Under the pieces are notes generated by a model. The model made no database searches and was not told where the DNA came from. It saw only the letters and a list, made by a program, of their open reading frames with translations. A program made the position numbers and the translations under genes. Positions 17,608-19,988 of a stretch of 38,099 nucleotides of DNA are shown here, piece by piece. This DNA is from Clostridiales bacterium. GTDB lineage: Bacteria > Bacillota > Clostridia > Mahellales > Mahellaceae. The stretch is taken from NCBI GenBank assembly GCA_030156435.1, contig JASGMM010000010.1, positions 1 through 38,099 of the forward strand, in the 5' to 3' direction. Each line of letters starts with the position of its first letter. Positions within the stretch are counted from its first letter, which is position 1.

Positions 17608-18954
17608 TCAAGCTAGATATTCTTCTATTATAGCAGCCAAACGCGTGGCCTCCTGCTCCAGCTCGTCTATATCAGGCCCTTCTATCATTACCCTGACCAG
17701 CGGTTCGGTACCAGACGGCCTTATTACAACCCGTCCCATGCTATTGAACTTTTTTTCTATCCTATTTATCTCTTCAGCTATGGCACCGCATTGCAAATAC
17801 ACCTCTTTTTTATCATTGCTTACTTTTGCGTTGACCAATACCTGAGGGAATTGTTTCATTACAGTCGACAGCTGCGCCAATCTCTTTTTCTTTCTTACCA
17901 TGACCGACAGCAACTGTAGCGCCGTTATCAAACCATCGCCGGTAGTATTATGATCCAGAAATATAACGTGGCCCGATTGTTCGCCTCCCAATGAATAATC
18001 CTCCTGCAGCATCTTCTCCAGCACATAGCGATCCCCTACCGCTGTCCTGACCACACGGCAACCAGCGTTTTTAAGTGCTATTTCCAAACCTATATTGCTC
18101 ATAATAGTGGCCACTACGGTATCCTTTTTTAAGGTGCCGCGTTCATGCATATCTATACCGCATATAGCCATTATCTTATCGCCGTCGACCAATACACCGT
18201 TTTCATCTACAGCGATCAAGCGATCGGCGTCGCCATCAAAAGCCAATCCTAAATCCACCTCATTTTCCAACACATAGTCCTGCAAAGCTTTGGGATGGGT
18301 GGAGCCGCAATTGCGATTTATATTGGTACCGTCCGGATCGTCAAAAAAACAAATCGTTTCGGCACCGAGCTGGGATAGCAGAAGCGGCGCTACTCTATAA
18401 GCAGCACCATTAGCGCAATCGACAGCTATCTTATAGCCTTTAAGGTCTATAGAAACGGTGGATTTTAGAAAATTCACATAGTCCTCAGCGGCATTTTGTA
18501 CCACCACCCTGCGCCCTACGGCATCGCCCGCACACATGGGAATTTGCTGCGTTTGATCCAATATTATAGATTCTATACGATCCTCCAATTCATCAGGCAA
18601 TTTATAGCCATCACGGTTGAAGAATTTGATGCCGTTATATTCCATAGGATTATGTGAAGCCGATATCACTACGCCTGCATCAGCTCCATAAAGCCTTGTA
18701 AGATAAGCCACTGACGGCGTGGGCATGACTCCTACACATAGAGCTTCCCCGCCCACAGAACAAATGCCAGCCACCAAAGCCGCCTCTAGCATATCGCCTG
18801 ATACACGCGTGTCACGGGCTACTACTATGCGAGGCCTTGGATTTTCCTCCGCCAGCACATATGCTCCGGCTTGGCCCAAAGAAAATGCCAAACCGCAGGT
18901 TAATTCTGTATTAGCGACGCCTCTTACGCCATCTGTGCCAAATAATCTTCCCAT
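17608..18954 (-). CDS. glmM: Phosphoglucosamine mutase
   Basis: GlmM converts glucosamine-6-phosphate into glucosamine-1-phosphate for UDP-GlcNAc synthesis. The 448-residue protein has the four domains of alpha-D-phosphohexomutases. They are marked by FGTDGVRG at the N-terminus, the phosphoserine loop VISASHNPMEYNG near residue 100, the metal loop DGDADR near 240, the sugar-binding GGEQSGHV near 325, and the phosphate-binding RPSGTEPLVRVMIEG near the C-terminus. GGAGG precedes the ATG at a short spacing. It lies directly upstream of the glmS ribozyme and may be co-transcribed with it. Cleavage would then separate glmM mRNA from glmS mRNA. Confidence 0.97.
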   Translation of the reverse strand: MGRLFGTDGVRGVANTELTCGLAFSLGQAGAYVLAEENPRPRIVVARDTRVSGDMLEAALVAGICSVGGEALCVGVMPTPSVAYLTRLYGADAGVVISASHNPMEYNGIKFFNRDGYKLPDELEDRIESIILDQTQQIPMCAGDAVGRRVVVQNAAEDYVNFLKSTVSIDLKGYKIAVDCANGAAYRVAPLLLSQLGAETICFFDDPDGTNINRNCGSTHPKALQDYVLENEVDLGLAFDGDADRLIAVDENGVLVDGDKIMAICGIDMHERGTLKKDTVVATIMSNIGLEIALKNAGCRVVRTAVGDRYVLEKMLQEDYSLGGEQSGHVIFLDHNTTGDGLITALQLLSVMVRKKKRLAQLSTVMKQFPQVLVNAKVSNDKKEVYLQCGAIAEEINRIEKKFNSMGRVVIRPSGTEPLVRVMIEGPDIDELEQEATRLAAIIEEYLA

Positions 18955-18988
18955 ATCGCCTCCAATGTCAGCATAAATATTTCATTTT

Positions 18989-19025
18989 ATTATACGCGCT
19001 TAATGCCCGTATTGATATCATTATA
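18989..19025 (-). promoter_or_regulatory. Candidate -10 boxes ahead of glmM
   Basis: Two perfect TATAAT hexamers on the minus strand (18989-18994 and 19020-19025) lie between the MITE and glmM. Neither has a good -35 at 16-18 bp. One is probably the glmM start signal, but which one cannot be decided. Confidence 0.35.
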
Positions 19026-19058
19026 CATTATTTTATCATATATATAAAGTGCCTGTTT

Positions 19059-19245
19059 GTGACTGTTCAGGTACCATTATGTATAGGCTACGGTAACGAT
19101 TAGACTCAAGGCGATTTTGTGGAGATAACAAGAATTTATCTGCGCTTTGGAAATTTCCGAAACGAGCTTTAGTTTCACCGATATCCGAAACACATGAGCC
19201 AGAGGCTAATCAGTTACCAAGGCCATGAGGTGCCTGAACAGTAAC
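19059..19245. mobile_element. 187-bp MITE-like inverted-repeat element with 8-bp target duplication
   Basis: The ends are GTGACTGTTCAGGTACC (19059-19075) and the inverse of GTTACTGTTCAGGCACC (19229-19245), 15 of 17 matching. Inverted similarity continues inward (GGTAACGATTAGACTC against GGTAACTGATTAGCCTC). The interior folds into further small stems (GTTTC...GAAAC, GGAAATTTCC, GATAA...TTATC). A perfect 8-bp direct repeat GCCTGTTT flanks it (19051-19058 and 19246-19253). It has no ORF. The insertion is one base past the recO stop codon, so it did not break recO but sits in the intergenic space before glmM. The 8-bp duplication and the ends would fit mobilisation by an IS66-like transposase; that is inference. 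Confidence 0.85.
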
Positions 19246-19253
19246 GCCTGTTT

Positions 19254-19988
19254 CTATAGCTTCATGGGCACGATATGCTTATCTATCCTGGATAAAATAT
19301 ATTGGTTAAAGACATCCCACAACTGCTTTTTTAAGACATCGCTCATTTTAAGGCGATTCATATCGTTTATTCTCATAGATAATATATGAGATACAGTATT
19401 TATAAAGCCTTGATTTACCGCAGTAACATCATCGCTGCTGGCAGCACAGCCTTTACATAACACTCCTCCCGATATGGGACTGAAATATAATATCGAACCA
19501 TCTATATCGCCCTTACCGCAATTGCAACACTGATCGAGCAATGGCCTGTACCCTATAAAGTCCATGAGCTTTATGGCAAATATAAGCGCAAGGGCTGAAG
19601 CATCGGTATTAAGCTCGGATAGAAATTGTAGTGTTTTTAAAAGCAAGTAATACGCTCTTATATTCGGTTCCGCATCTTGTATGACTGCATCGCATAGATT
19701 TGTAGCATAAGCAGCATAAGCTAGGTTATTCATGTTTTGGCGCAATTCAAAGAACGTACATTTTACTTCGCTTTGAGTTACTGTATAAAGGTTTTTACCC
19801 TCATACAACATATAATCGGCTAAAACAAAAATCTCACTAGCCATTAAAAATCGGCTCTTAGGCCTGCGGCTGCCCTTTGCTATGGCATGAATCTTTCCTA
19901 GCTCCTTAGAGAACATGACCAGTATCCTATCGGCTTCGAGATAATCCATATGCTTCAAAACAATTGCCTCTGTCTTTATCAGGCTCAA
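19254..19988 (-). CDS. recO: DNA repair protein RecO
   Basis: RecO helps load RecA on SSB-coated single-stranded DNA in the RecFOR pathway. Its 244 residues are typical. The N-terminal OB fold begins with TEAIVLKHMDYLEADRI, and RRPKSRF and the helical region follow. A zinc finger is formed by CCNC (near 155) and LCKGC (near 180). The start is TTG at 19988 with GGAG 9 nt upstream, and the family alignment supports it. yqzL lies 24 nt upstream, the usual Firmicutes order. The stop codon abuts the duplicated target of the MITE. Confidence 0.95.
   Translation of the reverse strand: MSLIKTEAIVLKHMDYLEADRILVMFSKELGKIHAIAKGSRRPKSRFLMASEIFVLADYMLYEGKNLYTVTQSEVKCTFFELRQNMNNLAYAAYATNLCDAVIQDAEPNIRAYYLLLKTLQFLSELNTDASALALIFAIKLMDFIGYRPLLDQCCNCGKGDIDGSILYFSPISGGVLCKGCAASSDDVTAVNQGFINTVSHILSMRINDMNRLKMSDVLKKQLWDVFNQYILSRIDKHIVPMKL

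Follow-up and report, generated by a model that had tools for sequence, protein, structure and literature searches.

The recO-glmM junction

The window (the whole stretch of 38,099 nucleotides that was analysed) carries, between recO and a downstream gene that we take from its sequence to be glmM, a 187-bp insert flanked by two copies of the 8-mer GCCTGTTT (Table 1). Recomputation bears out the anatomy given in the original prediction, namely the 15/17 terminal inverted repeats, an inverted subterminal similarity that we place in a second, inner pair of arms, and the lack of coding capacity, with no ORF of at least 80 aa inside the element in the ORF list of the window. Its internal stems are strong, as had been claimed: the element folds at -62.8 vs -38.7 kcal/mol for shuffles (z -5.75), and the arms pair lengthwise as a long imperfect hairpin both in the fold of the window copy and in the family consensus structure. 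As to its position, placement behind recO holds but "one base past" the stop codon does not, for it is the 8-bp target that directly adjoins the stop while the element body, with its GTGACTRTTCAGG ends, starts 8 bp past it.

Table 1. Features of the insertion locus (positions in the window) and the DruA-IS66 elements used for comparison (positions in their own loci).
Feature	Position	Strand	Basis or remark
187-bp MITE, internally deleted form of 286-bp element	19059..19245	.	copies in own genome and congeners; alignment; empty sites
Target-site duplication, left copy, GCCTGTTT	19051..19058	+	8/8 identical to right copy
Target-site duplication, right copy, GCCTGTTT, abuts recO stop codon	19246..19253	+	
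Left terminal inverted repeat, GTGACTGTTCAGGTACC	19059..19075	+	15/17 complementary to right arm
Right terminal inverted repeat, GTTACTGTTCAGGCACC on minus strand	19229..19245	-	15/17 complementary to left arm
Inner (subterminal) arm, GGTAACGATTAGACTC	19092..19107	+	pairs with 19202-19218 in fold and family consensus structure
Inner (subterminal) arm, GAGGCTAATCAGTTACC	19202..19218	+	pairs with 19092-19107 in fold and family consensus structure
Junction of 99-bp internal deletion relative to 286-bp copies	19122..19126	.	alignment columns 65-163
recO, intact, upstream neighbour	19254..19988	-	ORF 244 aa; stop at 19254-19256
Presumed glmM, downstream neighbour	17608..18954	-	ORF 448 aa
Promoter-like site TTTATA-17-TATAAT, 10/12	19020..19048	-	consensus scan; between insert and glmM
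DruA-domain gene (PF14236) and IS66 transposase, GTGACT/GTGTCT-type ends	L184:387-2854 (G025)		
DruA-domain gene (PF14236) and IS66 transposase, GTGACT/GTGTCT-type ends	L218:3469-6322 (G050)		
DruA-domain gene (PF14236) and IS66 transposase, GTGACT/GTGTCT-type ends	L220:949-3086 (G058)		
DruA-domain gene (PF14236) and IS66 transposase, degenerate	L190:554-3585 (Mahella australiensis)		

Because the 8-bp target lies against its stop codon, recO is left intact. The promoter-like stretch on the other side is conserved in both congeners (see below), and our consensus scan found no intrinsic-terminator-like site in 18900-19400. Since the promoter-like site lies beyond the insert, the sequence does not indicate a strong effect on glmM, which likely keeps its own promoter, so that the insert is likely close to neutral; the hairpin could lower read-through from recO.

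Empty sites and a family restricted to Mahella

For comparison within the genus we used G001 and G002 (Mahella australiensis) next to the own genome of the window (G000). A RecO search found orthologues 91-92% identical in G002 and G001, and we infer a Mahella-type bacterium as the source of the window. When the recO-glmM junctions are aligned, both congeners lack the 187 bp and one copy of the 8-mer: G002 reads TAG-AAACAGGC-ACTTTATATATAT with a single 8-mer identical to the window target, and G001 reads TAG-CAATAGGT-ACTTTATATATAT, where the single 8-mer carries three changes. By this comparison, the element would have arrived in its own lineage after the split from the two sequenced congeners.

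The own genome holds 30 partial or full matches to the element, and a query of 286 bp, about the length of full copies, gave 28 matches in G002 and 14 in G001 but found nothing in 38 more genomes of the class. Extending the scan to 391 genomes of the class placed no family member outside the genus, distant blastn detected no relatives in plasmids and phages, and an interior 22-mer had no match in a genome collection that may lack the own genome or its close relatives. Within the genus there are dozens of relatives (43-530 bp), mostly intergenic and palindromic. Empty sites in G001 and G002, and copies in both of them as well as in the own genome, are the two observations on which the original prediction of a MITE with an exact 8-bp duplication had been staked, and both bear it out.

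Duplication length was assessed with 23 copies whose ends could both be placed, by comparing their flanks with re-paired flanks in 5000 permutations. Mean identity of the flanking 8-mers is 0.587 vs 0.278 after re-pairing, a value reached in none of the permutations (0/5000, p < 2e-4); the signal peaks at 8 bp, spills over weakly to 7 and 9 and is absent from these copies at lengths 6 or 10-12. The duplication is perfect in three copies, and at least 6/8 positions match in 13 rows, two of which represent one orthologous site. The remaining copies have no duplication, which is to be expected where they are old or rearranged or where an end has been placed at least one base off. The 8/8 flanks, the empty site in two congeners and the family-wide 8-bp duplication together confirm that the observation is beyond chance. 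Short and without a transposase gene, bounded by terminal inverted repeats and a target-site duplication, and known from dispersed copies and empty sites, the element is a MITE. Its insertion is cleanly documented by one filled and two empty sites, a duplication length common to the family and a likely transposase family.

Size variation around the hairpin apex

In alignment, the window copy equals the 286-bp form with a single internal gap of 99 bp. Copies at shared sites differ in a similar manner: one measures 280 bp in G000 vs 133 bp in G002, where sequence flanked by GATATC and GATATCC is missing around the hairpin apex, and another is 286 bp in one genome vs a 44-bp remnant. Given such internal deletions among copies that share a site, the window's own loss may have occurred in place, after insertion, and the comparison as a whole displays in-place erosion of bacterial hairpin elements. 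In other copies the apex has time and again been lost or has come to hold other palindromic repeats. Several of them carry an alternative apex, for which two modules were seen, of ~100 nt and of ~165-230 nt, and each of these modules recurs at many further genomic positions. We also note that two other palindromic repeat families are nested in the MITE apex (L025, L028, L031, L139) and occur solitarily in Mahella genomes (L221-L235), one of them in dozens of copies across three genomes. A MITE copy is further present in the same intergenic region at L035 (G000:C30) and L144 (G002:418 kb), but the two are oppositely oriented and their apexes differ; these could be two independent insertions.

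Most stretches of the interior agree at 90-100% between copies of 286 bp, against 66-75% in the outer 20 columns, which is the reverse of the usual pattern and not typical for a MITE. Either gene conversion between copies or constraint would account for this, though strong constraint at each locus is hard to reconcile with the loss of interiors at shared sites. The copy at G000:C69 was compared as a test of constraint, and its whole locus proved nearly identical between genomes, too alike to speak for constraint. Over ~800 bp this locus (L028, L150) is identical to M. australiensis, against 91% identity for RecO, and this points to recent exchange or to sequences mixed in assembly.

Ends shared with IS66 elements

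The original prediction had derived IS66-type transposition from the length of the duplication; it gains considerably from the ends. Searching 391 class genomes for the 17-nt end, with no more than a single mismatch allowed, we found matches outside Mahella in six genomes and two matches only in G025, a Clostridiales MAG. These two are inverted, lie 2.9 kb apart, share 19 identical bases and enclose a DruA-domain gene (PF14236) and an IS66 transposase that scores above cut-off for PF03050 and NF033517, and the left end of the window copy is identical (17/17) to both ends of this element from another genus. A search with the G025 DruA protein led to further loci combining DruA and IS66 (Table 1), among them one in G050 whose two ends both read GTGTCTATTCAGGTAG, a variant shared by Mahella copies. 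M. australiensis has a degenerate locus of this kind, with a GTTAYTATTCACAGCCC end. While the ends are alike, these elements of 2.1-3.0 kb have two genes and a dissimilar interior, and none is intact in the own genome. At the G025 and G002 copies we saw no clear 8-bp duplication. In a DruA scan of the genome collection the sole source matched was that of G025, and our literature search found no paper with both IS66 and DUF4338.

Exact 8-bp duplications came from IS66 elements on plasmids, whose ends were located by an inverted-repeat search around each transposase that made no use of the MITE sequence. They flank ISGst1 (ends GTAACTATTCA, duplication AAAAGAAC), ISGka4 (ends GTAACTATTCAGCCC, duplication AACTCGTC) and copies in Geobacillus lituanicus (duplication AGCAATTT), Planococcus (ends GTAACTACTTAGGT, duplication TTTAATTT) and Deinococcus grandis (ends GTAACTGCTCAGCAGGG, duplication CGTCGAAT). 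ISDge4, a member of the ISBst12 group of IS66 for which active transposition is reported, has ends GTGACTACTCAGCA/GTAACTGCTCAGCA and an 8-bp duplication CCTCGATG (PMC12898284). Because the plasmid elements and ISDge4 have near-identical ends and duplicate 8 bp, the ends and the duplication length of the MITE agree with IS66 of the ISBst12 type; its end GTGACTRTTCAG fits the terminal motif of the group when set beside GTAACTATTCA, GTAACTATTCAGCCC and GTAACTGCTCAGCAGGG. ISGst1, ISGka4 and ISDge4 thus resemble the MITE in terminal motif (GTRACTATTCAG or near) and 8-bp target duplication, but encode a transposase of ~450-480 aa, whereas the MITE is noncoding and has only its ends in common with them. 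Another noncoding, short element with terminal repeats, direct repeats and truncated or variable copies is Chunjie of Geobacter uraniireducens, which belongs to a different family and is likened here by its description (PMC10969869). The same review of prokaryotic MITEs leaves IS66 unmentioned (PMC10969869), and IS66-type MITEs seem little described.

Mode of insertion and alternative explanations

Our preferred reading, which we hold at a probability of about 0.9, is that of an IS66-type (ISBst12) MITE inserted in trans behind recO and now probably a passive resident. An IS66-family transposase of ISBst12 type would have acted in trans on the GTGACTRTTCAGGTACC ends, the element would have been joined to target DNA cut with an 8-bp stagger immediately after the recO stop codon, and the GCCTGTTT duplication would have arisen when this cut was repaired. 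Precise insertion, duplication, family and common ends are the parts of this sequence that our comparisons demonstrate; enzyme and chemistry are the presumptive ones. That a transposase from elsewhere is needed, as had been argued from the missing ORF, is consistent with our data, but an IS66 transposase (PF03050) was detected neither in G000 nor in G001, and the two in G002 are degenerate or partial. The window copy is probably immobile now because no such enzyme was detected in its own genome. Since the MITE interior also matches none of the autonomous elements compared, which lends no support to descent from one of them by simple internal deletion, the enzyme that moved this copy is one that we infer and it may be gone. 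With no ORF inside and no PF03050 in G000, we class the element as a MITE carrying IS66-type ends rather than as an IS66 element, and it is a real but fairly ordinary addition, in the form of a genus-restricted family, to a known kind of mobile element.

Families of the IS256 and ISAs1 type can yield duplications of 8-9 bp, and movement by such a transposase has to be weighed all the more as the own genome encodes one of IS256 type together with DruA-domain genes related to elements that combine DruA with an ISAs1-like gene. We consider this very unlikely, given that the inverted repeats near the own IS256 gene (AATTTTGTGTATAG and CCTTTCTGGCG) and the CCAGGGGTGAAG ends of the DruA element at C49 are unlike those of the MITE, which match IS66 elements instead. 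This difference in ends is why we rejected both the IS256 and the DruA-ISAs1-like elements present in the own genome as mobilisers.

A conserved structured RNA or regulatory element that is not mobile, such as a leader or attenuator between recO and glmM, would be in keeping with the strong fold (z -5.75), with the interior being conserved above the ends and with six pairs of the family consensus structure that have changes on both sides. The covariation term of this consensus is slightly unfavourable (+0.79), however, interiors are deleted at shared sites, Rfam returned no match above gathering score (one sub-threshold chance match lies outside the element), and neither the orthologous site without element in both congeners nor copies with 8-bp duplications at unrelated loci would be anticipated, all of which renders this explanation highly improbable; a structured RNA or riboswitch was rejected on the lack of an Rfam match and the empty sites. 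Finally, as a multi-copy, palindromic and mostly intergenic sequence, the element might be taken for a repetitive extragenic palindrome of the REP or ERIC kind that spreads without a DDE transposase, which is scarcely credible in view of the precise 8-bp target duplication and IS66-like termini.

DruA-domain genes as possible partners of transposases

The DruA family is named after the Druantia phage-defence system. Because DruA-domain genes adjoin not only IS66 but, within the genus, also an ISAs1-like transposase, the domain may serve transposons in general as an accessory and have been taken up by defence only afterwards, and the MITE family might have been mobilised by a two-gene IS66 variant with a DruA-domain protein as transposition partner – a tentative idea that we regard as doubtful. 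DruA-domain genes as partners of transposases would bear on the origin of a component of a defence system. The ISAs1-like association, with a DDE transposase (PF13808), is seen at G001:C30 (L202/L194), and related DruA copies occur in the own genome at L203 (G000:C49), at L207 (the end of G000:C4) and elsewhere, some of them cut by contig ends. For two of the DruA proteins at the G001:C30 and G000 loci, the Mom family gave a weak match that stayed below threshold.
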